Part shown: positions 858 to 33,961 of the stretch, one piece after another | Layout: every line of letters starts with the position of its first letter | Position numbering within the stretch: position 1 is the first letter of the stretch | Origin: a virus | Virus record (IMG/VR): IMGVR_UViG_3300046777_000454 | Span: 1 to 34,529 of that record | DNA length: 34,529 nucleotides | Strand: one strand, 5' to 3' | Notes under the pieces: model-generated | Database searches by the model: none | What the model was told of the DNA's origin: nothing | What the model saw: the letters and a program-made list of their open reading frames with translations, nothing else | Program-made: the position numbers and the translations under genes

Positions 858-1820
858 ATGGCTATTGTTACTAATACCTTCACCCGTTACTCGGCTATCG
901 GTATCCGTGAAGACCTGTCGAACGTCATTTACAACATCTCGCCGGAAGAAACTCCGTTCATTGCGAACATCGCACGCGAGAACGTGAAGAACACCTACTT
1001 CGAATGGCAGACGGACGCTCTGTCGGCTGCTTCGGCCTCTAACGCCGCACTCGAAGGTGACGACATCTCTTCGTTCCAAGCTGTTACGCCGACTGCTCGC
1101 GTTGGCAACTACACGCAGATCAGCACGAAGAACGTCATCATCTCCGGAACGCTCGAAGCCGTTGATAAGGCTGGCCGTCGCTCGGAACTGACCTATCAGC
1201 TCGCCAAGATGGGCGCTGAACTGAAGCGTGACATGGAAAGCGCACTGCTCGCTAACCAAGCCGCTGTTGCTGGTAACACCACGACTGCTCGTCGCACGGC
1301 TGGTCTGCCTGCTTGGTTGACCTCGAACACCTCGTTCGGCACGGGCGGTGCTGACCCGACTGTTGGCTCGACCCCGACTGCTGCCCGCACGGACGGCACT
1401 CAGCGTGCCTTCACCGAAACGCTTCTGAAGGAAGTTGTTGCTGAAGTCTGGACTTCTGGCGGCACTCCGAAGATGCTCATGGTTGGTGCATTCAACAAGC
1501 AGGCTGCTTCGGCATTCTCCGGCATCGCCACGAAGTTCCGTGACGTTCCGGCTGGCCAGCAGGCTCAGATCATTGGCGCAGCAGACGTTTATGTGTCTGA
1601 CTTCGGCACAATCAACATTGTTCCGAACCGCTTCCAGCGCGCTCGTGACGCATTTGTTGTCGATCCTGAGTATGCTTCGCTCGCCATCCTGCGTCCGATC
1701 CAGCAGACTGAGCTGGCTAAGACGGGTGACGCTGAGAAGCGCCTGATGCTCGTTGAGTATGGCCTGAAGGTCAGCAATCAGGCAGCGCATGGTATCGTAG
1801 CAGATTTGACCACGGCATAA
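858..1820 (+). CDS. Major capsid protein (SU10-like / DUF5309, HK97 fold)
   Basis: A 320-residue protein that resembles the SU10-type major head protein family (formerly DUF5309), which adopts the HK97 fold and forms the icosahedral shell. Visible family features are the N-terminal segment with 'SPEETPF' (about residues 29-35), the 'TYFEWQTD' strand near residue 50, and a C-terminal half containing 'DVYVSDFGTINIVPN'. Codon use is strongly biased toward C/G at third positions compared with neighbours, typical of a very highly expressed gene. The start follows an AAGGA ribosome site at 843-847. A stem-loop lies just behind the gene. Confidence 0.9.
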   Translation: MAIVTNTFTRYSAIGIREDLSNVIYNISPEETPFIANIARENVKNTYFEWQTDALSAASASNAALEGDDISSFQAVTPTARVGNYTQISTKNVIISGTLEAVDKAGRRSELTYQLAKMGAELKRDMESALLANQAAVAGNTTTARRTAGLPAWLTSNTSFGTGGADPTVGSTPTAARTDGTQRAFTETLLKEVVAEVWTSGGTPKMLMVGAFNKQAASAFSGIATKFRDVPAGQQAQIIGAADVYVSDFGTINIVPNRFQRARDAFVVDPEYASLAILRPIQQTELAKTGDAEKRLMLVEYGLKVSNQAAHGIVADLTTA

Positions 1821-1880: not shown

Positions 1881-2189
1881 ATGACCAAACGTATTCTGAA
1901 TGACGACAGCGCAACAACGGGCATCGTCACTTCATTTCACTATGACGCTGACAAGGATGAGGCTATCATCCAGAAGACACAGGATGTGTCCGGCATCATT
2001 GAAGCTAACAAGGCCGAATTTAACGCTGCACCAGAGCGTTGGGGGGAGTGGTCTAAGGTTGGCTCTATTCCGCTTTCAGTATATTATGAGCTTGAGCGCA
2101 AAGGCATCCTACAGGATCAGAAGGCGCTCGCTAAATGGCTGAATGACCCCGACAATCGGGCGTTCCGCACAAGGCCGGGGACTATCTAA
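1881..2189 (+). CDS. Conserved phage head-region protein, unknown function
   Basis: A 102-residue acidic/basic mixed protein without membrane segment. The start is preceded by a strong AGGAGGG ribosome site (1871-1877). It sits between the major capsid and the adaptor and its stop overlaps the next start, so it is probably translated together with head-completion genes. I recognise no enzymatic motif; features such as 'ERWGEWSKVGSIPLSVYYELERKG' could be described as a helical region but give no function. A minor head or connector-associated role is inferred from position only. Confidence 0.7.
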   Translation: MTKRILNDDSATTGIVTSFHYDADKDEAIIQKTQDVSGIIEANKAEFNAAPERWGEWSKVGSIPLSVYYELERKGILQDQKALAKWLNDPDNRAFRTRPGTI

Positions 2190-2809
2190 TGGCGATTACA
2201 ACGTATTCAGAGTTGAAAACGGCAGTAGCAGATTGGCTCAATCGCTCTGACCTTACCTCTGTTATCCCTAACTTCATTTCGCTCGCTGAAGCGCAGATGA
2301 ACCGCCAAATCCGTCATAGGAAGATGGTGACACGGGCAGACGCAACTCTGGATACGCCGTATTTTGCTGTTCCTGCTGACTGGCTGGAGAACATCCGCTT
2401 CCAGTTGAACACAAATCCCATTACGCCGCTCAAGTTTGTCACGGCAGAGCAGCTTGCTGAAGACAGCCAAATCTACATTCCGTCCGGCCAGCCCATGTTT
2501 TACACGATGGTTGGGCAGCAATTTCAGGTTCTTCCGACACCTGATAGCTCTTACACGGGTGAATTGACCTATTACGCTAAAATCCCGTCATTGAGCGATG
2601 CAGCGCCGACCAACTGGCTGCTGACAGAGGCCCCAGATGTGTATCTCTACGCTACATTGGTGCAGTCTGCGCCCTATCTGAAGGAAGATGAGCGCACGGG
2701 TGTCTGGGCTGGTCTGTATCAGACGCTCGTAAATGACATGAAAATTGCTGATGAACGTGCTAGAATTGGCAGCAGCAAGTTAACACCACGTATTCGGCCT
2801 TTTGTCTAA
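2189..2809 (+). CDS. Head-tail adaptor protein (SU10 adaptor-like)
   Basis: A 206-residue protein beginning 'MAITTYSELKTAVADWLNR' and containing 'LISLAEAQ'-type helix (here FISLAEAQMNRQIR, residues 27-40), a hallmark of the adaptor family that forms a dodecameric ring under the portal in short-tailed phages of the SU10 type. The later segment with 'YYAKIPSLSD' and 'YATLVQSAPYL' also fits that family. The start overlaps the preceding stop by one base. In the particle it should connect the portal to the nozzle. Identification is by pattern recall and not by a search. Confidence 0.8.
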   Translation: MAITTYSELKTAVADWLNRSDLTSVIPNFISLAEAQMNRQIRHRKMVTRADATLDTPYFAVPADWLENIRFQLNTNPITPLKFVTAEQLAEDSQIYIPSGQPMFYTMVGQQFQVLPTPDSSYTGELTYYAKIPSLSDAAPTNWLLTEAPDVYLYATLVQSAPYLKEDERTGVWAGLYQTLVNDMKIADERARIGSSKLTPRIRPFV

Positions 2810-2819
2810 GGAGCTTTAG

Positions 2820-3200
2820 ATGTCGTTCTCCAACTACCTTGAAAATAAGGTGATGCTGCACGTTTTTGGCGGCACATCTTACACCGCGCCTGCAACTTTG
2901 TATGTTGGCCTCTATACGTCTGATCCCGGCGAGGGCAACACAGGCACGGAAGTCTCTGGTGGCTCGTATGCTCGTCAGTCTGCTGCCTTCACAGTGACAG
3001 ATAACGCTGCTGCTAACACGGCTGCCATCGAGTTTCCGACTGCAACAGGCTCTTGGGGGACTGTAACCTATGTTGGCATCAGCGATGCGTCATCTGGCGG
3101 CAATCTGCTGGCTTCTGGCGCTCTGACGACCTCCAAGACGATTAGCAGCGGTGATGTGTTCCGTATTCCAACAGGCGATCTCGACATTACACTGGACTAA
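2820..3200 (+). CDS. Small tail-fibre-like structural protein (Gp80-like)
   Basis: A 126-residue protein with the start 'MSFSNYLENKVMLHVFGG', a segment 'LYVGLYTSDPGE' (27-38) and later 'TYVGISDASSGG'. This pattern is familiar from small phage proteins annotated as tail fibre or Gp80-like, predicted to be all-beta. The ribosome site AAGGAG lies at 2808-2813, seven bases before the start. It opens the fibre block. Exact role in the particle (decoration or fibre attachment) is not determined by the sequence. Confidence 0.75.
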   Translation: MSFSNYLENKVMLHVFGGTSYTAPATLYVGLYTSDPGEGNTGTEVSGGSYARQSAAFTVTDNAAANTAAIEFPTATGSWGTVTYVGISDASSGGNLLASGALTTSKTISSGDVFRIPTGDLDITLD

Positions 3201-3203
3201 TAG

Positions 3204-4079
3204 ATGAGCTTCTATGGTAGCGGAAATTACGGGGCAGGGGCTTACCCCGCTGGCGCTCCGTCCGGCTACGGAAGCGGCCTCTATGGTCGTGGAAGCTATG
3301 GTGAAGACGCAATTGAGGGCGCGGCGACCATTGCTGCGTCCTCAGACGTATCTGCTACTGCTCAACGGATTAAGGATGGTGCTGCTGCTGTTGCGGCCAC
3401 ATCTGATGTTACGGCATCTGCTATCCGTTATGCGAATGCACAGGTCGCAATCACTGGGCAGTCTAATGTAAATGCATCCGCTGTTCGCGTTGCCTTTGGC
3501 GCTTCTGCAATTACGGCGACAAGCAACGTTACGGCAGTCGGGCAAAAGACAATCCCCGGCGCTGCTGCGATTACAGCTACGTCAGATGTCACGGCAACGG
3601 CAACAAGAACGACATTTGCTGCCGCTGAGATCAACGCTACAACGACATTTACGGCAAACGCTAATCGTATCGTCTTCGCAGCGTCCGAAATAAACGCTCT
3701 CAGCGCGATTACGGCCTCTGCCGTGCGTTATGCCCAGACAACCATTGATATTGCCTCTACGAGCGCCCTGACGGCCTCTGGCGTGATGGTTAACTCGGCT
3801 GCCGCACTGCTTTCAGCTACATCAAGCGTTGCAATTGCTGCTGGAATTAGATTTACTGACAGCGCAGCGGTAAGCGCGACAAGTGTAGTTACCTGTAACG
3901 CGGTAAAGAAATGGGAGCCGCAACCTGTCACACCTGAAACGTGGACACCGCAGGCAGAAACGGGAGAAACGTGGACACCTGTTGTCGTGACTTCTGAGAC
4001 TTGGGATGAAGTCGCAAATACTAACAAGACATGGACGCCAATTTCTGTTACAGAAGAAACTTGGCAGCAAGCTGCATGA
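3204..4079 (+). CDS. Three-part repeat protein: Gly/Tyr-rich head, ten 20-residue repeats, five 10-residue repeats
   Basis: A 291-residue protein with a very regular build. Residues 1-38 are Gly/Tyr/Ser rich (GYGSGLYGRGSYG). Residues 39-238 are exactly ten repeats of 20 residues with no insertion or deletion; a typical unit is GAAAITATSDVTATATRTTF. Residues 239-241 are a linker and 242-291 are exactly five 10-residue repeats carrying a central Glu/Lys-Thr-Trp (VTPETWTPQA, ETGETWTPVV and so on). No enzyme motif. Lying between fibre genes, it is probably an elongated beta-rich fibre or adhesin; a beta-solenoid is inferred from the constant unit length. A single Cys occurs in the last 20-residue unit. 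Confidence 0.8.
   Translation: MSFYGSGNYGAGAYPAGAPSGYGSGLYGRGSYGEDAIEGAATIAASSDVSATAQRIKDGAAAVAATSDVTASAIRYANAQVAITGQSNVNASAVRVAFGASAITATSNVTAVGQKTIPGAAAITATSDVTATATRTTFAAAEINATTTFTANANRIVFAASEINALSAITASAVRYAQTTIDIASTSALTASGVMVNSAAALLSATSSVAIAAGIRFTDSAAVSATSVVTCNAVKKWEPQPVTPETWTPQAETGETWTPVVVTSETWDEVANTNKTWTPISVTEETWQQAA
3318..3917 (+). repeat. Ten tandem 60-bp coding repeats
   Basis: Ten consecutive 60-base units encode the 20-residue repeats of the surrounding gene. Units are diverged in bases yet constant in length. Common positions are an A-x-I/V start, S/T-x-V/F in the middle and T/S-A at the end of each unit. Confidence 0.85.
3927..4076 (+). repeat. Five tandem 30-bp coding repeats (Thr-Trp units)
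   Basis: Five 30-base units encode 10-residue repeats, each with E/K-T-W at positions 4-6 of the unit. They follow directly after the ten longer units, with one three-residue spacer, and end two bases before the stop-codon region. Confidence 0.8.
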
Positions 4080-4087
4080 GGTAAAAG

Positions 4088-4825
4088 ATGGCTGATACAA
4101 CCACAACTAACCTTGGGCTTACCAAGCCTGAAGTCGGCGCTTCTGCCGATACTTGGGGGACCAAGCTAAACACTGACCTTGATTTGGTCGATGCGCTGTT
4201 CGCTGCTGGCGGAACAGGCACAAGCGTTGGTCTTAATGTTGGTGCGGGCAAGACGCTTGCCGTTGCTGGGACACTGGCTCTCACCGGCAACGTGACGGCC
4301 AATAGCGCGACAATCAGCCCGACTGAACTCAGCTATCTCGACGGCGTAACGTCTAACATCCAGACGCAACTTGGTAACGCGATTACCGCTTCTGGCACAG
4401 CAACGCTGACGAATAAGACGATTGCGTTTTCTAGCAACACGCTGACGGGTGTGGCTCCGCTGGCCTCTCCGACATTCACTGGCACTGTGACAACAGCGAC
4501 GACTGACCTTCTCGGCTCAGTCCGCTCAAACATCACAGCGGTTTCTGCGTCCGCAATTGACTGCTCTGCTGGCAACTTCTTCACGAAGACCGCATCTGGT
4601 GCGCTGACTTGGACGTTCACCAATGTGCCATCATCTCGCGCCTTCTCGCTGCTTCTCGAACTGACTAATGGCGGCACAGGCACACAGACTTGGCCCGCTG
4701 CTGTTAAGTGGCCGGGTGGAACTGCGCCGACGCTGACGACATCTGGTGTCGATATTCTTGGCTTCATCACTGATGATGGCGGCACAACATGGCGCGGTGT
4801 CGCCCTTATGGTGGATAGCAAATAA
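4088..4825 (+). CDS. Tail fibre protein with beta-rich repeats
   Basis: A 245-residue protein starting 'MADTTTTNLGLTKPEVGAS', followed by 'TWGTKLNTDLDLVDALF', a widespread start in phage tail fibres ('TNLGLTKP...DTWG..iN.'). The middle holds the familiar fibre segments ISPTELSYLDGVTSNIQTQL-like and 'GTATLTNKTI' and 'APLASPTFTGTVTT'. The C-terminal part (about 150-245) is a compact beta-rich domain with 'TWTFTNVPS' and 'TTWRGVALMV'. It is probably a trimeric fibre shaft and tip on the tail. The stop overlaps the start of the LamG protein, so the two are likely made in fixed ratio. Confidence 0.85.
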   Translation: MADTTTTNLGLTKPEVGASADTWGTKLNTDLDLVDALFAAGGTGTSVGLNVGAGKTLAVAGTLALTGNVTANSATISPTELSYLDGVTSNIQTQLGNAITASGTATLTNKTIAFSSNTLTGVAPLASPTFTGTVTTATTDLLGSVRSNITAVSASAIDCSAGNFFTKTASGALTWTFTNVPSSRAFSLLLELTNGGTGTQTWPAAVKWPGGTAPTLTTSGVDILGFITDDGGTTWRGVALMVDSK

Positions 4826-6837
4826 TGCTTGACCGCATTTTGATTGGTTCTTCCGTAGAGCCGAACGACCCCAACTTCAAGAACGTAACGCTGCTGCTCC
4901 ACGGCGATGGGAGCAACGGCGCACAGAACAACACGTTCATCGACAGCAGCACGAATAACTTCACGATTACCCGCAATGGCAACACGACGCAGGGTTCGTT
5001 CTCTCCGTATGGTAGCAACTGGTCTAACTACTTTGATGGTAGTGGGGATTATCTGACTGCGCCTAGTAATGCCGCATTTGATTTTTCTACAAGCGACTTC
5101 ACAGTTGAATGTTGGTTTATAGCTTCAGCTGTTTCGTCAAATATGTCATTGGTCAATAATTACAATGCTGGATCGGCTGGCTGGGGCATACAGTGGCGTT
5201 CTGATGTAAGTGAATATCGGTTTTTCTGGGGCGACACAGTCCTTCTAAGTTACGCAGCGACACCAACTGTAGGTGCTTGGACGCATATTGCTGTTTCACG
5301 TTCAGGAACATCTTTGAAGATGTTTGTAAATGGCGTGCAAGTAGCATCAGCAACCAATTCAACTAGCCTAAGCGGAGGAACGACTGTGGTTGTCGGCGCG
5401 ATCAATGCGTCTGGCTACACACAGTATTTCAATGGCTACATCTCAAACGTCCGAGTGGTCAAAGGCACAGCCGTCTATACCGCAGCCTTCACGCCCAGCA
5501 CAACGCCACTCACAGCAATCACCAACACCTCACTGCTGACTTGCGCCTATAACCGCTTCCGCGATGGCAGCACGAACAACTTCACCATCACCCGCAATGG
5601 CGATGTGAAGGTAACGAACCTTGCTCCGTTTGCGCCTTCGTCTGCTTACAGCACCAGCACGAATGGTGGCTCTGCGTATTTTGATGGGAATGAAGACTTT
5701 CTTACTTCGCCGGACAATGCTGCTGTGCAGTTTGGCAGTGGTGATTTCACTATTGAAATGTGGGTTTATTTTTCTTCTGCTAATATAGCTGAACAGCAAT
5801 ACCTACTATTCAACGGCGCAAATGCAAATTCTTATGGGCCGTATAAATTATACTACAACGGAGCAAATAACTTAAAAATATACGGCTCTTCAAATGGATC
5901 GTCATGGGACGTTTTTAACGGGCTTAATGTAATTACTACAGTAGTAAGTGATTGCTGGTATCACATAGCACTTGTCCGATCCGGTAGTACATTTAGTGCG
6001 TATGCAAATGGTGTTCGCCAATCAACCGCCTCTGTTTCAGGTTCCCTAATCTCAACTGGAACACCAGTACGGATTGCAGCAGGTGACGCATTTGGGTCGT
6101 ATAATTTTAATGGCTATATGTCTAATTTCCGTATGGTTAAGGGTACTGCGGTTTATGATCCATCGCAAAGCAGTCTGACTATCCCGACCGCACCCGTTAC
6201 CGCCATCACAAACACATCCCTACTGCTGAACTTCACCAACGCGGCCATCTTCGACAACTCAATGAAGAACGACCTTGAGACTGTCGGCAACGCTCAGATC
6301 AGCACGAGCGTGAAGAAGTTTGGCACGGGTTCGATGGCGTTTGATGGTAGTGGGGACTATCTCTATCCAGCCGCAAGCCCAAATCTCGCTATGGGGACTG
6401 GAGATTTCACTGTCGAAGGATGGATTTACGCAACTGGAACGCCAAGCGATAGCCCAATTTTCGAATGCCGCTCAACAGGTAGTGCCACTGACGGGTTCAC
6501 TCTGACGGCCTTTAGCTCAAGCGTAATACGCCTATTCTGTGGCAGCGCGCTCATCTCTTCATCAAGCACGACTTATGTCGGTCAATGGGTGCATTTGGCA
6601 GTTGCCCGTGTTTCTGGAACCACGACCTTTTATATCAACGGAACAAGCGTTGGCTCAACAACATCAACAATTAATTGGACGAACCAAGACGTAATTGTTG
6701 GGGGTGGGCGCTATTCCGCCGGATCGTCAATCAACGTATCATTCACAGGTTACATCGACGATTTCCGCATTACCAAAGGCGTGGCCCGCTACACCGCAAA
6801 CTTCACACCGCCCACAGCGGCATTCCCGAATAAGTAA
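4825..6837 (+). CDS. Receptor-binding fibre protein with three LamG/concanavalin-like modules
   Basis: A 670-residue protein made of three related modules of roughly 215-225 residues. Each has an opening 'hhFDGsgDYL' strand, a 'F/FTh-E-hW' strand (for example DFTVECW, DFTIEMW, DFTVEGW) and a closing 'F-x-G-Y-h-x-x-h-R-h-x-K-G' segment near residues 202, 427 and 640. These are the marks of LamG-like (concanavalin A-like) carbohydrate-binding jelly rolls. It most likely binds surface polysaccharide of the host. The centres of modules 1 and 2 (about 5100-5450 and 5740-6170) are richer in A+T and use different codons from the module edges, which are alike even in bases, a sign of module exchange. 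Confidence 0.85.
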   Translation: MLDRILIGSSVEPNDPNFKNVTLLLHGDGSNGAQNNTFIDSSTNNFTITRNGNTTQGSFSPYGSNWSNYFDGSGDYLTAPSNAAFDFSTSDFTVECWFIASAVSSNMSLVNNYNAGSAGWGIQWRSDVSEYRFFWGDTVLLSYAATPTVGAWTHIAVSRSGTSLKMFVNGVQVASATNSTSLSGGTTVVVGAINASGYTQYFNGYISNVRVVKGTAVYTAAFTPSTTPLTAITNTSLLTCAYNRFRDGSTNNFTITRNGDVKVTNLAPFAPSSAYSTSTNGGSAYFDGNEDFLTSPDNAAVQFGSGDFTIEMWVYFSSANIAEQQYLLFNGANANSYGPYKLYYNGANNLKIYGSSNGSSWDVFNGLNVITTVVSDCWYHIALVRSGSTFSAYANGVRQSTASVSGSLISTGTPVRIAAGDAFGSYNFNGYMSNFRMVKGTAVYDPSQSSLTIPTAPVTAITNTSLLLNFTNAAIFDNSMKNDLETVGNAQISTSVKKFGTGSMAFDGSGDYLYPAASPNLAMGTGDFTVEGWIYATGTPSDSPIFECRSTGSATDGFTLTAFSSSVIRLFCGSALISSSSTTYVGQWVHLAVARVSGTTTFYINGTSVGSTTSTINWTNQDVIVGGGRYSAGSSINVSFTGYIDDFRITKGVARYTANFTPPTAAFPNK

Positions 6838-8026: not shown

Positions 8027-8244
8027 CGGGGGCTGGTATTGAAAGTGCCATTCTTAATCGCATCCGGGTCTGGTGGCGTCCTATTACCTGTGTCGGGATT
8101 GCGGCAGCGGTTTTCGTCAACGCTATCATATTGCCGCTCATGCGGAAGGAGCCGATTTCGCTTACAGATTTGGCGGCTACGATTGCGTCTTGTGCAACTA
8201 TTTTCGCGGTGAGGGAATGGGGCAAAATAAATGGGGCCGATTAA
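8023..8244 (+). CDS. Holin, two predicted membrane segments
   Basis: A 73-residue protein with two hydrophobic stretches, about residues 19-40 (ITCVGIAAAVFVNAIILPLM) and 48-64 (TDLAATIASCATIFAVR), joined by a short charged loop (MRKEP). It resembles small holins of alphaproteobacterial phages and gene-transfer agents. It should form holes in the inner membrane and set lysis time, letting the soluble endolysin out. Start overlaps the endolysin stop (ATGA), and its 3' end overlaps the next gene by 14 bases, giving a compact lysis operon. Confidence 0.8.
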   Translation: MTGAGIESAILNRIRVWWRPITCVGIAAAVFVNAIILPLMRKEPISLTDLAATIASCATIFAVREWGKINGAD

Positions 8245-8590
8245 TCCGTTCCTTGGCTATGTGGCGGCAGGCGCTCTTGTTATTGGCATCGCCGCCGGAT
8301 GGAAGGTAAAAGATTGGCAGTGCGACGCTGCCTACGCTGCTGCGCTTGAAAAGGCTGAGAAGCAGCGCAAAGAACTTCAGGGGAAAATAGATGCGGTTTC
8401 TACGCTTTACGAAGCCCAGCGGGATCAAGCCAATGTCGTGGTCGCCGGAAAAACACGGGAAATTAGGGAAATTTACAAAACGCTTCCTGCCGTTCCTGCT
8501 GATTGTGCTGTTGATGTTCGCGTTCTCCGGCTGCTCGAAAGCGGTGTCAGTGATGCCAATTCCGCAGCCTCCGGCAAACTTAGCGAATAG
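8231..8590 (+). CDS. Rz: Inner-membrane spanin subunit (Rz-like)
   Basis: A 119-residue protein with an N-terminal membrane segment (about residues 6-25, FLGYVAAGALVIGIAAGWKV) followed by a long charged helix with heptad character (about 33-85) and a flexible C-terminus. That is the layout of an i-spanin anchored in the inner membrane with a periplasmic coiled coil. The o-spanin gene starts inside it in another frame. Together they fuse inner and outer membranes in the last step of lysis, which implies a Gram-negative host. Sequence similarity to lambda Rz is not obvious; the call is from architecture and position. Confidence 0.8.
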   Translation: MGPINPFLGYVAAGALVIGIAAGWKVKDWQCDAAYAAALEKAEKQRKELQGKIDAVSTLYEAQRDQANVVVAGKTREIREIYKTLPAVPADCAVDVRVLRLLESGVSDANSAASGKLSE

Positions 8591-8741
8591 CTGTCCAGAG
8601 CTTCCAAAACCGCCTCAGCCGCTCTCCGATCCTGAGCGCGCCATCTGGGAATTGGAAATAATTGCCAAATATGGTGATTGTGCGCTACGTCACCGCTTGA
8701 CGATTGATGCGTGGAGAGACGCGGCTCGTCAAAGCAAATGA
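8391..8741 (+). CDS. Rz1: Outer-membrane spanin lipoprotein (Rz1-like), overlapping Rz
   Basis: A 116-residue protein in the +1 frame relative to the i-spanin gene, overlapping it for 200 bases and then running on alone. It has a basic N-region, a hydrophobic signal (about 32-46) and a lipobox-like FSGC with Cys48 as the lipidation site, followed by a Pro-rich mature part (MPIPQPP, PKPPQP), as in Rz1 proteins. The start at 8391 has an AGGGG ribosome site seven bases upstream; a second in-frame ATG at 8433 would give a more ordinary signal peptide. The C-terminus is longer than in the smallest Rz1 proteins. Confidence 0.82.
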   Translation: MRFLRFTKPSGIKPMSWSPEKHGKLGKFTKRFLPFLLIVLLMFAFSGCSKAVSVMPIPQPPANLANSCPELPKPPQPLSDPERAIWELEIIAKYGDCALRHRLTIDAWRDAARQSK

Positions 8742-14464: not shown

Positions 14465-15174
14465 TGGGATGGCGTGACGCACCAATTGTAAAGGCTGCTC
14501 CTGAAGCACTTCAGAGGCCCATTGATCCAACGCAAACGCCCGGTTTTCAGGCATCTGTAGCTGGCGCAACGGCCCGCGCCCGTGCAGGCGTGGAGGCTGA
14601 AACTCCTCCTCCCGGCTATCGCTGGGCAGATGCAACGCGCACGCGGCTTGTTCCTATTCCCGGCGGCCCTGCTGATAAGGCGCAGCCAACGCTCAATACG
14701 CAACAAAAGCTATCCGCTCGCGAAGATGCCGCATATCGTGTGGCGTTAGCTCGTCAGTTAAAAGAAAACACAAAGGGCCTTACTGGGACAGGGCTTTTTG
14801 GTCCATTATTTTCGAATTTTGGCGGAACGAGATCGGCAGATGCTGAAGCTGTAATTGAAAATCTGCGTCAAAAGGGTGCCATGGCAGCAGTTCTTGAAAT
14901 GCTTCAAGAAACTGGCGGTAAGAACCCATTCACACCTATGAGCCAAGGCGAAGTCGCTATTATTGCTGGTTCAAAGATACCTCCTATGGGTATTAATCTT
15001 AGTGATAAGGTAAATCAGCAATCGGCAAATCAAATCGAGCGCGCCGGATCAAGGGCATATAAGCTACTTGGTGGAACGCAGGCGCAGTTGGAGGCTGACA
15101 TTAACCGCCTTCTTGGCCGCGCACAGACAACAAATCGCGCAAATGCTGGGGTTAAAGTCGAAAGGGTTCGCTAA
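14464..15174 (+). CDS. Internal virion protein candidate
   Basis: A 236-residue protein. Near the start is 'ETPPPGYRWADATRTRLVPIPGGPAD' (seen as PGYRWADATRTRLVPIPGGP), a short motif found repeatedly in phage internal proteins and related to the tail phrase of the upstream gene. The rest is helical. There is no membrane segment or enzyme motif. One-base overlaps (TAATG) join it to both neighbours, so the ejection-protein group is translated as a unit. Confidence 0.65.
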   Translation: MGWRDAPIVKAAPEALQRPIDPTQTPGFQASVAGATARARAGVEAETPPPGYRWADATRTRLVPIPGGPADKAQPTLNTQQKLSAREDAAYRVALARQLKENTKGLTGTGLFGPLFSNFGGTRSADAEAVIENLRQKGAMAAVLEMLQETGGKNPFTPMSQGEVAIIAGSKIPPMGINLSDKVNQQSANQIERAGSRAYKLLGGTQAQLEADINRLLGRAQTTNRANAGVKVERVR

Positions 15175-17396
15175 TGGCGAAGAAGAGTGCCACTTATCGC
15201 GTTTCCCTTCCTGATGGGCGCGTATACAACGTAACTGCACCAGAAGGCACTCCGCGTAACGAGCTTATTCGTATTGCTCGCGAAAGCGAATTGCCGCAGC
15301 GCACAACTGGCTTTGGCATTCCGGCAATTGATGTTCCGCTGTCCGCTTTGAATGAAGCCGTTATTGGTGGCGTTCAAGGCTTGTCTCGAATGACATCAGC
15401 CATCACAGACCCGGTTATTGAGGCTGGCCTTAACCTCATTCGCCCCGGGCTTGGAACAAGTGGTCGTCAGGCGACTGAGGAAACCCGTAGCCGCATTGAG
15501 CAGGAGGCATCTCGCCGCACAGTAGCCCGCCCAACGCCTTTGGCTCGTGAAACTGGTCAGGTTCTTAGTTCTTTTGCTGCCGGTGCTTTGCGCGCCCCTT
15601 CTGCCGTTGCCCGTATCGCTCCTCGTGCGGCTCCAGCGATTACTCGCGCTATTCAAGGAGCTGTTGGCGCTCAGGCAGTTCCAACTCCCGGTCTGACGCA
15701 GGCGCAATCCGCCCTATTGGGTGGAGCAACTAACGTCATCCTTCCTCCTGCTCTACAGGCTGTTGCCCGCACTCGTCCGGCTCAGGCCGCACTTGGCGCA
15801 GTATCTCGTGCTGCTGCCCCTGTTGTTGGCGCTCTCGATGAAGGCGCTACAGCTCTTCGCCGTGCTGTTGGAATTGAGACACCTGTGCGCGCTCCAATCC
15901 AAGCTGCGCCAGTGGCAATGCAGGCTGCAGAAGTCCCAATTTCTCGTATGGCCCTTCCAGAGGCCACTCAGCAAGCCATCCCGCAAGTTGAAGAAGCTCT
16001 TGGTCGTGAAGCTGCCCAGCGCCTCCGTAACTTTGAGCGGATTGGTGTAACGCAGCCTACAACCGGCATGATTACTCGCGAGCCGGGTGTTTGGCAGTTT
16101 GAGCGCAACACAATGGGCCAAGTAAATGTTGGCGAGCCTATTCGTGACGCGATTGTTAAGGTCAACGATGAGATCAATCAGGCCGCAACAGACCTTATCC
16201 AAAAGGTTGGCGTTGCAGATGACGTTGAAAAGGTTGGCGCACTTGCCGCAGAGGCCCTTCGTAAGAAGGAGCAGGATATGCAGCGCGTTGTGGGTCAGTT
16301 GTATAAAAACGCTCGTGAACAATATGGCGAAAAGTCTGCCGGTCCTGTTCAGAACTTCCTAAGCCAACTTGATAACCCCGACTTGGTTGACAACGAAGCG
16401 TTTGATACAATTCGGAACAGCATCACTAAGCGCCTTCAGCGTTATGGCATGACCGGCGATAGCGGCCTACCGCGCCAAGATGCCGTTATGACAGTCGGCC
16501 AAGCTGAAGAAATGCGGAAATTCATTGGCGGACTTGGAAACGCGACAGACCCAAACATTCGTCGTATCCGTGCGCAGCTTATTGAGGCGCTCGACGATGA
16601 CGTTGTAGCTGGGTTTGGAGATGACGCATTTAAGGTTGCCCGCGCAGCCGCAAAGCAACGCTTCACAGAATTTAAGGATACGTTGGCTGGCAAGATGGGT
16701 GCTGGTGACGTTGCACCAGAGCGTATTACGCAGCGCCTCATGTCTGCATCAACGCCGTTGTCAGACTTCCGCAACCTGAAGGCAACTCTTCTTACGGGTG
16801 AAGCTGATCAGGTTGCTCGTGGTCAGCAGGCGTGGTCTAGCATTGGCGCACAGGCTCTGAACGATCTGTTTTCGTCTGCCCGCGTTGGCGAAAACATGGT
16901 ATCAGGCGCTCGTTTGCTAAAGAACTTTAATAAGAACATTGCTCGGTATCGTGAACTTCTCAATCGTGAAGAATACGTCACCTTGAACCGCATTGTTCGC
17001 GCTGCTCGTGACGCCACTGTTCCTGTTGACTTTTCAAACGTGAATACGTCTGGGACAGCGACAGCACTTGCAAACCTGTTTGCCGATCCCATCAAGGGCG
17101 GACGTTCTGGCGTTAAGACCATGATTGCTCACCTCGCGGCTGGTTTTGCTGGTGGTCCAGTTGCAAACGTGGCTGTTGCTGGCGCTCAAGAGGCTGCTAG
17201 AACGGCAGCAGAGCGCGCAGCCGCAGATGAGGCGGTTCGCCGTGCATTGCTTACCACACAGCCTCTAAACGTTGCCCAAGCGGTTCGTGCTAGTGCAATG
17301 CCGCAGCCTGTAGCAGCTCCGGCTCGTGGGATGACTTTCCCCGGCATCCTTGGTTCAATTTACGGACCGGCCTTCCCACCAGAAGAAGAGATGTAA
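15174..17396 (+). CDS. Large internal virion (ejection) protein
   Basis: A 740-residue protein. Residues 1-40 contain 'YRVSLPDGRVYNVTAPEGTP', a small N-terminal domain seen in several phage internal proteins. An Ala/Pro/Arg-rich part follows (about 90-260), then a long helical region (about 260-620) and a Gly/Ala-rich hydrophobic segment near 640-665 (AHLAAGFAGGPVANVAVAGA) able to enter a membrane. Its size and place before a virion transglycosylase fit the largest ejection protein, which extends the tail across the periplasm in podoviruses. Confidence 0.7.
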   Translation: MAKKSATYRVSLPDGRVYNVTAPEGTPRNELIRIARESELPQRTTGFGIPAIDVPLSALNEAVIGGVQGLSRMTSAITDPVIEAGLNLIRPGLGTSGRQATEETRSRIEQEASRRTVARPTPLARETGQVLSSFAAGALRAPSAVARIAPRAAPAITRAIQGAVGAQAVPTPGLTQAQSALLGGATNVILPPALQAVARTRPAQAALGAVSRAAAPVVGALDEGATALRRAVGIETPVRAPIQAAPVAMQAAEVPISRMALPEATQQAIPQVEEALGREAAQRLRNFERIGVTQPTTGMITREPGVWQFERNTMGQVNVGEPIRDAIVKVNDEINQAATDLIQKVGVADDVEKVGALAAEALRKKEQDMQRVVGQLYKNAREQYGEKSAGPVQNFLSQLDNPDLVDNEAFDTIRNSITKRLQRYGMTGDSGLPRQDAVMTVGQAEEMRKFIGGLGNATDPNIRRIRAQLIEALDDDVVAGFGDDAFKVARAAAKQRFTEFKDTLAGKMGAGDVAPERITQRLMSASTPLSDFRNLKATLLTGEADQVARGQQAWSSIGAQALNDLFSSARVGENMVSGARLLKNFNKNIARYRELLNREEYVTLNRIVRAARDATVPVDFSNVNTSGTATALANLFADPIKGGRSGVKTMIAHLAAGFAGGPVANVAVAGAQEAARTAAERAAADEAVRRALLTTQPLNVAQAVRASAMPQPVAAPARGMTFPGILGSIYGPAFPPEEEM

Positions 17397-29444: not shown

Positions 29445-31814
29445 ATGGCATATCGCAAGAACTCAAAGCCGTCGAAGGCGCAAGTTGCCGCAGCCTCCTA
29501 TCAGGACACAGGTGTTCCGAACGGGAATACCGAAGGCAGCAGCATGGACGATATGCCTGATGATGAAATGTCTATGGAGCTTCCCGATGGCGCAGAGCTG
29601 TCGGTAGAAGATGGCGGCATTGAAATGGAAATGCCTGAAGAAGAGGCGATGTCTGAAGAAGAAATTCAGAATATCGTTTCTGGCGAGATTGATGACGCTC
29701 AATCCTACATTGACGACGTAATCAGCCCAGAGCGCGCAGAAGCAGGCCAATACTACAAAGGTGAGCCTTTCGGTAACGAAGAGGAGGGCCGCTCTCAAGT
29801 CGTGTCGATGGATGTCCGCGACACTGTGCAGGCCATCATGCCGTCGATTATGCGTGTGTTCTTCGGCTCGTCAAAGGTTGTGGAATACGCTCCGAACCGC
29901 GCTGAAGACATTCAGATTGCAGATCAGGCGACTGATTACGTCAACTACTGCCTGACACGCGACAACAACCTATTCATCCACGCTTACGCCATGTTCAAGG
30001 ATGCTCTCATCCGTAAGAACGGCTTTGGTAAGATTTGGTGGGATGAGACTGAGAAGGTTGAAACCTACGAGATCGACGGCATTGATGAGAACGGCTACAT
30101 GGTTCTCATGTCCGACCCTGATGTTGAACTTCAGGAAGTCGAAGTCGAATACATGGAGCAGGAGATGGCAACGCCTGAGGGCATTGTCACTGTTGTCCAG
30201 ATGCCGACCTACAGCGCAAAGGTTGTTCGTCGCACGAAGGAAGGCCGCCTCAACGTAGCGGCGCTGCCGCCAGAAGAGTTTCTGATTGACCGGCGCGCTA
30301 AGTCGCTGAACGACTTCGACTTTATCGGCCATCGTCGCTACATGACCGTCTCTGAGCTTGTGGCTATGGGCTATGAGCAGGACGAAGTTGAGCAACTGGG
30401 CTACGAAACTCAGGATGACTTTGAAGGCAACCAAGAAGCGTTTGACCGCAACCCGCAAGCAACCATTCTTGGCGCTGGCCGCACGGATGTTGCAAGCCGT
30501 AAGGTTCTCTACATTGAAGGCTATCTCTACATTGACGTAGATGGCGATGGCATTGCTGAACTGCGCAAGGTCTGCGTTGGTGGCTCTGCCTACAAGCTGC
30601 TGCATCAGGAAGCTGTAGACGACCATCCATTCTTTGACTTCTGCCCAGACCCAGAGCCTCACACGTTCTTCGGTATGTCGATTGCAGACGTTGTGATGGA
30701 CATTCAGCGCATCAAGTCGTCAATTATGCGCAATACGTTGGATAGCTTGGCTCAGTCGATCTATCCGCGCATGGGTGTCGTTGAAGGTCAGGTGTCGATT
30801 GAAGACGTTCTGAACACTGAAGTTGGCGGCATCATCCGCATGAAGCAGCAAGGCGCTGTGCAGCCGTTCGTTACGCCGAATGTGTCGAGCGCCGCATTCC
30901 CCATGCTCGAATACATGGATGCCGTTAAGGAGAGCCGCACAGGCATTACGAAGGCATCTGCTGGTCTAGACCCCAATGCTCTGGCTAACTCCACTGCAAC
31001 GGCTGTTAACGCGACTGTAACGGCCTCTCAGCAGCATATTGAGCTAATCTGTCGCTTGTTTGCCGAAACTGGCTTCAAGACAATGATGACCAAGGCGCTG
31101 AAGCTATTGGTGAAGAACCAAGACAAGCCGCGTCTGGTGCGTCTGCGCAATGAGTTTGTGCCTATCGACCCGCGTGTCTGGGATGCAAACATGGATGTTG
31201 TGGTAAATGTGGCTCTCGGCACTGGATCAGACCAGCAGAAGATGGGCTTCTTGAACGTCATTGCCCAGAAGCAAGAGATGATTATGCAGCAGCTTGGTCC
31301 TGTTGGTAATCCGCTCGTGTCACTTGACGGCTACTACAACACGCTTGAGCAGATGCTGGCTGTCGCTGGCTTCAAGGACGTTTCTCAGTTCTTCCAGAAC
31401 CCGCAGGGCTTCCAACCTCCCGCTCCTCCGGCCCCGCAGCCCAGCCCAGAGCAAATCTTGGCTCAGGTTCAGGCGCAGAGCATTCAAGCTGACATCCAGA
31501 AGAAGGCCGCAGAGCTTGAGCTTCAGCGTGAAGAAATGCTGCTGAAGGATGACCGAGAACGCGACAAGATTGACGCTGAAGTCATGATTAAGGCTGCTGA
31601 GATTGAAGCTAAATACGGCACGGCTGTAAACACGGCTAACATTGAAGCCCTGATGCAGCGTGACCGCGAACTTCTCCGTCAGCAAGGCAATGTGCAGAAA
31701 GCTATGGTTGCCGCACAGCAACAGGCCCAAGCTGCACAAGACCAGCAGTTTGTAGACCAGTTAGCAGAAGAGCAGATGGCTCAGATTGCCGACCAAGAAC
31801 AGGGGATGATGTAA
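29445..31814 (+). CDS. Portal protein (SU10-like)
   Basis: A 789-residue protein. After an acidic Met/Glu/Asp-rich N-terminus (about 1-75) comes 'GRSQVVSMDVRDTVQAIMPSIMRVFFGS' (seen as VRDTVQAIMPSIMRVFFG) and 'ALIRKNGFGKIWWDETE', characteristic of portals of the SU10/P22-like podovirus type. The C-terminal part (about 660-789) is a long Gln/Ala/Glu-rich helix, probably the barrel. It forms the dodecameric ring for DNA entry and exit and docks terminase. Ribosome site AAGG is at 29435-29438. Confidence 0.9.
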   Translation: MAYRKNSKPSKAQVAAASYQDTGVPNGNTEGSSMDDMPDDEMSMELPDGAELSVEDGGIEMEMPEEEAMSEEEIQNIVSGEIDDAQSYIDDVISPERAEAGQYYKGEPFGNEEEGRSQVVSMDVRDTVQAIMPSIMRVFFGSSKVVEYAPNRAEDIQIADQATDYVNYCLTRDNNLFIHAYAMFKDALIRKNGFGKIWWDETEKVETYEIDGIDENGYMVLMSDPDVELQEVEVEYMEQEMATPEGIVTVVQMPTYSAKVVRRTKEGRLNVAALPPEEFLIDRRAKSLNDFDFIGHRRYMTVSELVAMGYEQDEVEQLGYETQDDFEGNQEAFDRNPQATILGAGRTDVASRKVLYIEGYLYIDVDGDGIAELRKVCVGGSAYKLLHQEAVDDHPFFDFCPDPEPHTFFGMSIADVVMDIQRIKSSIMRNTLDSLAQSIYPRMGVVEGQVSIEDVLNTEVGGIIRMKQQGAVQPFVTPNVSSAAFPMLEYMDAVKESRTGITKASAGLDPNALANSTATAVNATVTASQQHIELICRLFAETGFKTMMTKALKLLVKNQDKPRLVRLRNEFVPIDPRVWDANMDVVVNVALGTGSDQQKMGFLNVIAQKQEMIMQQLGPVGNPLVSLDGYYNTLEQMLAVAGFKDVSQFFQNPQGFQPPAPPAPQPSPEQILAQVQAQSIQADIQKKAAELELQREEMLLKDDRERDKIDAEVMIKAAEIEAKYGTAVNTANIEALMQRDRELLRQQGNVQKAMVAAQQQAQAAQDQQFVDQLAEEQMAQIADQEQGMM

Positions 31815-33961
31815 TGGCTTCACAAGCACCAGTTGTAACGCAAGCCGACCTTGACGCTTACATTGCATCTTACCAAAAGGCGCAAGCAGATCAGGCTGCG
31901 GCGCTGGCCGCTGCTCAAGCTACTGGTATGTCGGACCGCTACACGCAGCTTTATGGCGGTGCTGATATTGTTCCCGGCACTACGCAGGGCATCCTGTCCA
32001 ATATGGGAATTGAGAACCCGTATCTGCCTGTTTACTCACTAATCGGCAGCGCAAGTGTTGGTAACGACCTTGCTAACGAGCGTATGCAGTTTGCACCCAT
32101 TCCTGGTGTTTCGTATCGTTTGGTGGATAAAACCACTGGTGAAACGACCACAGCGAACACGCCTGAAGAAATTAAAGCCTTGATTGCACAAAGCAATGCA
32201 CTGTCTGCTGCTGGCGGAAAAGGCGCTAATCTGGCAATCGAAAGCAACCAAACTGGTAGCTGGTCGCCTGTTTTCACAGATGAGCCAAACCCGCTGTTTA
32301 ACGATATTACGAAGATTGCTTTAGCTGGTATGATTGCCGCCACAGGTGCTGGTCTTCTTCAGCCTGGTGGATTGGGTGGCGTGGGTGCTGCTGGGACAAC
32401 TGGCGCTGGCGCTGCTGGTGCAGGGACCGCTGCTGGCGCTGCTGGATTGGCTCCTGTTGCTACAGTTGCTGCTGCTGCTCCTGCCGCTGCGGCAGCTACA
32501 ACTGACTTGGTTGTCACCGCTCTGATGTCAAAAGGTTTCACCGCTGCACAAGCTGCCGCATTAGTGGCCTCTGGCGGAGCTGCTGCTGCCTTGTCTAGTT
32601 CAGGCGCGGCTGGCTCGACAACTGGAACAACGGCTGCATCAAACGCTACAAATACGATGCCCACAGCAACCACAACTGGCCCTGATTTGCTTCTGACAGC
32701 GCAACAAACTGGTTCTACTATTCCTGCCGTTGTTCCCGCTGCTGCCGCAGCTACTACTGCAGCGGCGACTGCAACCACGCCTGCAGCCACATCAAATACT
32801 CCCGCACCAAATCCTGCGGAGGATTTAACCTTAACGGCTCAAACGCAGCCGACAAATCTTCTGCCTGCAGAATTTCTTGCTCCTGCCGCTGTTGCTGCCG
32901 CTGCCGCTGCAAATGCCGCTGGTGCAACGACTACAGCCGCAGAGACTGCATCAACCCGTACAACTCCTACCGCTGAAGAGACTGCCGCATTAAACGCCGG
33001 TGCTGGCGCTGGCGGTATTCTTGGCACTGGATTGAGCGCAACACAGCTTGCTACACTTGCAAGTATTGGCGTATCTGGTCTTAATAGCCTGTTTGGTGGT
33101 GGCTCTGGTGGTGGAACTGGCGCTGGAACGCCTTACGTCTCCGCTCTAGGCGCTATGCCTAGCTTTACACCGCGCACTCAGATCAATCCTAACATCACGG
33201 ACTACGAGCGTTATGGCTATGGACCAGAGGCTTTGTTCTTCTCTGGTGGGCAGCGTTTAGATACATATACGCCTACTGCAGCGACTACTGCCGCGCAAAC
33301 AATATCTCCGGTTGCAACTCCAGCGGCAACAACTCCTGCTGCCACGCCGACAAATCTGATTGATAGTGCTGCTGGCGGAGTAAACCTTACATTGAATGAA
33401 GGTGCTGGGACCGCTGGAACTGGCCCGCAGATTGGCGGAAATCTTGGCCCAGCAACTCCTGAGAACACGGGAATGACGCAGGAGCGCCTTGACCAGCTAC
33501 AGGACCGCTTTGAGAATATGCGCTCTGGCGAGTTTTTCAATTACTTCAAGTCTGTCAATGACGTTCTTGGTAACTACGCTGCAAAGGGCATCATTACGCC
33601 TAACGATGCACAGGTATATCAATCTCGCTTGGAGGCCGCCGCATCTACGCCTGGCGCTACACTTGCTTCACTGCAATCAGCGGTTCCAATGCCGCAAATC
33701 TCGGACTTCATAGGTCCAACTGGAACGCGCCCTGTATATACATATACCGCTCCGTCTCAGCCGATTGTGGACCGTAGCGCATACATTAATGATTTGTATA
33801 AGCAACTAGGAGCGCAAGTTTCTCAGGGGTTTCTTCCGAATACAGCGGCGCAGAACATACAAAGTCAACTGCGGCAGACATATCTAAACCCACAGTCGAC
33901 AACTGAGCAACTTCAGAACGTTTACAACACGGCTATCCAGCAATATCGGCCACTTATCTAA
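31814..33961 (+). CDS. Large Ala/Thr-rich virion protein between portal and scaffold
   Basis: A 715-residue protein. The N-terminal ~190 residues are ordinary in composition and include 'YGGADIVPGTTQGILSNMG' and a hydrophobic stretch at about 177-196 (AGMIAATGAGLLQPGGLGG). The centre (about 190-520) is almost only Ala, Thr, Gly, Pro and Val with repeats of D-L-x-L-T-A-Q. The C-terminal ~170 residues are normal again and helical ('ERLDQLQDRFENMRSGEFFN'). Internal or ejected virion protein is likely from place and make-up. The Ala-rich middle could be flexible or fibrous. TAATG overlaps join it to both neighbours. Confidence 0.65.
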   Translation: MASQAPVVTQADLDAYIASYQKAQADQAAALAAAQATGMSDRYTQLYGGADIVPGTTQGILSNMGIENPYLPVYSLIGSASVGNDLANERMQFAPIPGVSYRLVDKTTGETTTANTPEEIKALIAQSNALSAAGGKGANLAIESNQTGSWSPVFTDEPNPLFNDITKIALAGMIAATGAGLLQPGGLGGVGAAGTTGAGAAGAGTAAGAAGLAPVATVAAAAPAAAAATTDLVVTALMSKGFTAAQAAALVASGGAAAALSSSGAAGSTTGTTAASNATNTMPTATTTGPDLLLTAQQTGSTIPAVVPAAAAATTAAATATTPAATSNTPAPNPAEDLTLTAQTQPTNLLPAEFLAPAAVAAAAAANAAGATTTAAETASTRTTPTAEETAALNAGAGAGGILGTGLSATQLATLASIGVSGLNSLFGGGSGGGTGAGTPYVSALGAMPSFTPRTQINPNITDYERYGYGPEALFFSGGQRLDTYTPTAATTAAQTISPVATPAATTPAATPTNLIDSAAGGVNLTLNEGAGTAGTGPQIGGNLGPATPENTGMTQERLDQLQDRFENMRSGEFFNYFKSVNDVLGNYAAKGIITPNDAQVYQSRLEAAASTPGATLASLQSAVPMPQISDFIGPTGTRPVYTYTAPSQPIVDRSAYINDLYKQLGAQVSQGFLPNTAAQNIQSQLRQTYLNPQSTTEQLQNVYNTAIQQYRPLI

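Follow-up and report, generated by a model that had tools for sequence, protein, structure and literature searches.

A periodic protein encoded behind a Gp80 bead gene is probably the rope of a GP4-type beaded phage fibre

The 291-residue protein P291, encoded directly downstream of a homolog of the fibre protein Gp80, probably acts as the rope (string) in a GP4 fibre I-type beaded side fibre of a short-tailed phage. It most likely represents a Trp-anchored rope variant of the GP4-like beaded fibre that is absent from the family libraries searched. The window, by which we mean the whole stretch of DNA analysed (34,529 nucleotides), is a 34.5-kb virus record of this short-tailed phage, and it also encodes a scaffold, a tail assembly chaperone, an endolysin, a terminase, and a portal. 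The features relevant to the fibre are as follows.

858–1820, plus strand: SU10-type major capsid protein (PF17236, E 2e-101).
2189–2809, plus strand: SU10-type head-tail adaptor protein (PF24175, E 4e-37).
2820–3200, plus strand: Gp80 bead protein of fibre I, 126 aa (PF23140, E 7e-48; PDB 8jou chain a, E 6e-13; Foldseek TM 0.80 to 8jou_a).
3204–4079, plus strand: putative rope protein P291, an ORF of 291 aa with an ATG start, periodic and with no match in Pfam, PHROGs, or the PDB.
3204–3317, plus strand: Gly/Tyr-rich N-terminus of P291, residues 1–38 (read from the sequence; YG pattern kept in relatives).
3318–3917, plus strand: ten 20-residue units, residues 39–238, proposed Gp80-binding array (unit length kept in 163/167 steps among relatives).
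3918–4067, plus strand: five 10-residue Trp units, residues 239–288, proposed anchor (six Trp with the KKW of the last 20-residue unit; an aromatic residue at exact 10-residue spacing in nearly all relatives).
4088–4825, plus strand: tail fibre protein adjoining the rope gene (phrog_9017 tail fiber, E 1e-12).
4825–6837, plus strand: protein with three LamG/concanavalin-like domains, a candidate receptor binder (PF13385, E 2e-57).

From residue 39 onward, P291 consists of ten consecutive 20-residue units, five 10-residue units, and a terminal QAA, with no insertion or deletion. The layout described in the initial annotation, including the Gly/Tyr-rich start that occupies residues 1–38, is therefore exact. 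The lag-20 identity in the repeat region is 0.411, whereas 500 shuffles reached at most 0.230 at any lag. Each 10-residue unit ends in (E/K)TW(T/D/Q) and the last 20-residue unit ends in KKWE, giving six tryptophans separated by five exact 10-residue intervals. In this Trp tail, the lag-10 identity is 0.442 and the lag-20 identity 0.545 (shuffle maximum, 0.333). The ten 20-residue units share a mean pairwise identity of 36%, indicating that the period outlives the sequence. At the DNA level, the rope gene is 48% identical at lag 60, which points to an old protein-level repeat rather than a recent DNA duplication. Two GARACNTGGAC segments, searched as an exact DNA pattern, were not found in viral contigs.

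The relatives of P291 preserve the unit length and vary the unit number by whole units. The six complete near relatives (68–82% identity) all display the 10 × 20 + 5 × 10 layout, and a seventh ends at a contig edge and is incomplete. In a rope group of 30% identity the layout is 8 × 20 + 5 × 10, a difference of whole units. A dynamic-programming fit was applied to 27 non-redundant sequences, two of which are non-ropes that add no steps. The step length was 20 in 163 of the 167 steps, the complete ropes contained 7 to 14 units, and the Trp spacing in the rope tails was exactly 10 throughout this set. These results bear out the earlier proposal of a fibre protein under a strict unit-length constraint, and a fibre component is very likely. 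The YG pattern of the N-terminus is also retained among the P291 relatives. Across the wider rope family, the number of 20-residue units ranges from about 5 to more than 20, as in the 476-aa rope of L174 with about 20 or more, while the lengths of 20 and 10 hardly change. A family rule of invariably five Trp units was rejected, since this wider sampling gave one to five Trp intervals. The cultured relative Octadecabacter DB2 gp11 has units of 22 residues, not 20.

The gene preceding P291 belongs to PF23140, the Pfam family "Podophage GP4 fiber I protein gp80", and the PDB entry matched by its predicted fold, 8jou, is titled "Fiber I and fiber-tail-adaptor of phage GP4". Besides ten chains of Gp80, this entry contains a 93-aa adaptor as three chains. 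In GP4 fibre I, an elongated rope protein reportedly connects five gp80 dimers, with five such fibres on a 15-fold collar. PF23140 was present in all 12 repeat-protein records tested, several of which are related and were fetched through one scan. Gp80 matches occur in 318 phage records, where the usual label is head or tail protein; with GP4 Gp80 as the query, no match was obtained in the genome contigs. The Gp80 and rope genes (2820–4079) lie in one frame with TAATAG alone between them, an arrangement also seen in three near relatives (L001, L002, and L005). The Gp80 fold additionally resembles connector/neck proteins of Bas63 and Sf14 (PDB 9mt4_K and 9c39_K; TM about 0.7), a resemblance suggesting that the bead descends from an older neck protein. 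The neck-fibre gp80 of A-1(L) was rejected as a candidate because it is a different protein that has only the number in common.

The association of the 20-residue period with Gp80 was assessed in a rope-blind sample, in which viral contigs were chosen by Gp80 alone and the ORF following Gp80 was scored for its lag-20 z value. ORFs with z > 4 were counted as periodic, and other ORFs of at least 120 aa served as controls. The ORF after Gp80 was periodic in 55/78 contigs (70%), compared with 8/355 control ORFs (2%), and the median z values were 9.2 and 0.2, respectively. Among the exceptions inspected, 7/11 carry a periodic ORF with a Trp tail, or the start of one, farther downstream. After removal of redundancy, 15/19 ORFs following Gp80 still passed, and the best lag was 20 or 40 in 16/19. 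This sample thus ties the period to Gp80. The best lag is likewise 20 behind Gp80 in Burkholderia DC1, BcepIL02, BcepMigl, Ochrobactrum POI1126, and Sinorhizobium PBC5, in some of these only close to the 99% shuffle level, and the gene in this position in BcepIL02 is annotated as "virion-associated". In Itty13, Atu_ph08, PBC5, and phiM5, lag 20 alone lies below the 99% shuffle level, and at least one phage, the mycobacteriophage Bernardo, has a Gp80 homolog without an adjacent downstream 20-residue repeat protein. Sinorhizobium phiM5 and Octadecabacter DB virus 2 are cultured and carry both genes; for phiM5, gp17 (Gp80) has been reported from the particle proteome, but gp18 has not. The period follows the Gp80 gene even in repeat proteins without detectable sequence similarity to P291. 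That the constraint tracks the neighboring gene across such dissimilar proteins points to a binding partner that sets the period.

The exact period and the alternating small/hydrophobic pattern would also suit units that fold by themselves into a monomeric or trimeric β-solenoid shaft, in which each 20-residue unit is one coil and the Trp units form the tip. AlphaFold2 predicted P291 alone with a mean pLDDT of 46.8 and no residue above 70, the Trp tail and the N-terminus appearing as coil. As a stand-in for the complex, the in-frame read-through product of Gp80 and P291 was folded. Its Gp80 part was well predicted (block means mostly 73–89), the Trp tail had a pLDDT of about 40, and the model as a whole had a pTM of 0.37 with no confident contact or interface. 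The repeats in this fusion model are solenoid-like, with three short strands per 20-residue unit at a pLDDT of about 60, and weak Foldseek matches to left-handed β-helices such as LpxD and GlmU (E 0.16–1) point in the same direction. The low confidence for P291 alone argues against such a fold, as does the different strand count between runs, with two strands per 20-residue unit in one run versus three in the other. In addition, the columns of the 20-residue units are mostly Ala, Ser, Thr, and Val with few large core residues, and the period goes with Gp80 genes rather than with a conserved unit sequence. The authors of the LSH1 paper (PMC13243795) suspect that similar β-helix predictions are hallucinations. 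Considering the disagreement between runs and the linkage of the period to the Gp80 gene, we regard the β-solenoid put forward in the initial annotation as improbable. Trimeric β-spiral or YadA-type shafts also differ from P291 in their units of about 14–15 residues instead of 20.

The comparison with GP4 itself relies on the L196 record, whose Gp80 matches GP4 Gp80 (the 8jou chain) with 100% identity across 132 compared residues. The neighboring gene encodes a 325-aa protein whose best lag is 20, with an identity of 0.208 across its repeats versus 0.201 for the highest shuffle. This rope matched no PDB chain, and neither did the Lessievirus rope, searched both as a single sequence and as a profile. 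The GP4 rope probably corresponds to the L196-type gene, although the L196 rope sequence is not among the PDB chains; the rope in 8jou may have been built without sequence. By eye, the L196 rope contains about 11 units, compared with the ten Gp80 chains in 8jou, which makes a ratio of roughly one 20-residue unit to each Gp80 subunit plausible. Because some ropes have an odd number of units, the data do not require each subunit of a dimer to take exactly one unit.

The proposed fibre of P291 resembles GP4 fibre I, from a Ralstonia podophage, in its Gp80 bead, in a gene for a 20-residue periodic protein that immediately follows the bead gene on its 3′ side, in the short tail of the virion, and in a C-terminal-side rope tail with a period of 9–10 residues. 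The two ropes differ in that they share no detectable sequence similarity and in that R-x-L-x-V elements at 9–10 residue spacing, as read from the GP4-like and Lessievirus sequences, stand in place of the Trp 10-residue units. Moreover, neither the window record nor nine Trp-type relatives yielded a detectable homolog of the 93-aa fibre-tail adaptor (8jou_D), whereas this adaptor is present in the L196 record and in DC1. The rope anchor of the window phage would therefore differ from that of GP4, and we do not count the P291 system as a full GP4 member. The earlier statement that the arrangement was unfamiliar from described phage fibres is only partly right, as GP4 fibre I appears to be the same kind of fibre.

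Other systems share individual elements. PHROG 19041, "virion structural protein", unites the L196 and DC1 ropes; its members (Lessievirus DC1 gp54, BcepIL02 gp56, and the L196 rope) follow Gp80 and have the 20-residue period, although the profile does not match P291. According to the LSH1 paper (PMC13243795), 8JOU_g forms a fibril between the adhesin and the tail collar, the GP4 protein is dimeric, and in LSH1 the homolog of 8JOU_g adjoins a badly predicted, unexplained repeat-like stretch. By this description, the gp34–gp36 module of the Alishewanella phage LSH1 is similar in placing a Gp80-like fibril protein beside a badly predicted stretch with an N-terminal adhesin-like domain; LSH1 is, however, a siphovirus. 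SU10 (Kuravirus) has its adaptor and capsid families in common with the window and possesses spaced tryptophans in a dock loop, but its long fibres are trimeric and anchored by the N-terminus, and the excerpted description reports no Gp80 rope.

The Trp end is among the best-conserved parts of the rope and constitutes its constant end. In nearly every rope, the last Trp comes 3–12 residues before the C-terminus, and foreign globular domains have been added on the N-terminal side or within the array (L139, L150, L171, and DB2 gp11). The Trp end is thus more likely the virion anchor, and we infer that the Trp array would attach the rope to a collar component other than that used by GP4. In L139 (2657–5047), the array seems to be interrupted by a LamG-looking domain that sits between rope units.

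Aromatic-rich repeats frequently bind glycans. On this general ground, the Trp array could be a distal receptor- or sugar-binding tip, as the initial annotation had suggested. A receptor-binding tip would not be expected among the most conserved parts of the protein, however, and the added globular domains lie on the opposite side or inside the array. The replacement of the Trp array by R-x-L-x-V repeats of 9 to 10 residues in GP4-like and Lessievirus ropes also speaks against it, and we consider a sugar-binding tip very improbable. Alternatively, the Trp units may serve as a strap for fibre docking: the extended chain would offer its tryptophans one after another to the three subunits of a trimeric fibre, and P291 would thereby tie the next fibre to the tail, be it the 4088–4825 product or the LamG protein. 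Such a strap concerns the Trp tail only and is compatible with a rope. The nozzle loop of SU10 offers a precedent, with Trp839, Trp847, and Trp857 spaced 8 and 10 residues apart (PMC9509320), and the six tryptophans of the window family, where five exact intervals are always found, equal 2 × 3. The wider family nevertheless has two to six tryptophans without keeping to multiples of three, and L034 and C72C1 have no fibre gene between the rope and the next tail gene. We consider a docking strap unlikely.

In the proposed beaded fibre, for which threading, stoichiometry, polarity, and anchor role are deduced rather than observed, the rope chain would thread a row of Gp80 beads. Each 20-residue unit would be a pair of short β-strand-forming halves that docks one Gp80 subunit (or dimer), so that the bead, and not a self-contained fold, would fix the unit length, while the unit number would set the number of beads per fibre. 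The C-terminal Trp units would fix the rope to the tail collar, leaving the N-terminal side as the free end, where other phages have globular, probably adhesive, domains. A broader proposal, which we advance tentatively and with somewhat less than even confidence, is that the 20-residue unit serves as a molecular ruler in widespread beaded phage fibres, with one Gp80 bead per unit across dissimilar sequences, and that the Trp units are a new C-terminal virion anchor in a fibre of reversed polarity with a free N-terminus. If the ruler is real, bead number and fibre length could be read from the genome. The link to ropes would also give a function to many unannotated or misannotated proteins ("serine-rich adhesin" and "ribonuclease E"), provide Gp80, a common orphan virion protein, with a partner in the periodic rope gene, and possibly explain the doubtful β-helices that AlphaFold draws for such stretches.

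Elsewhere in the structural region of the window, the 740-aa product of 15174–17396 had no Pfam or PHROG match, and the 715-aa product of 31814–33961 had no PHROG match. The overlapping ORFs at 8231–8590 and 8391–8741 are Rz/Rz1 spanin-like; in the second, a hydrophobic stretch is followed by a lipobox-like FSGC. Rope-like proteins were also noticed under other labels. Octadecabacter Antarctic DB virus 2 gp11 (L032, 6669–8195), annotated as "ribonuclease E", combines a globular domain, the 22-residue repeats, and six tryptophans at a spacing of 10, and the ropes of two Manatee Spring phages (L034 and L035) are annotated as "serine-rich adhesin".
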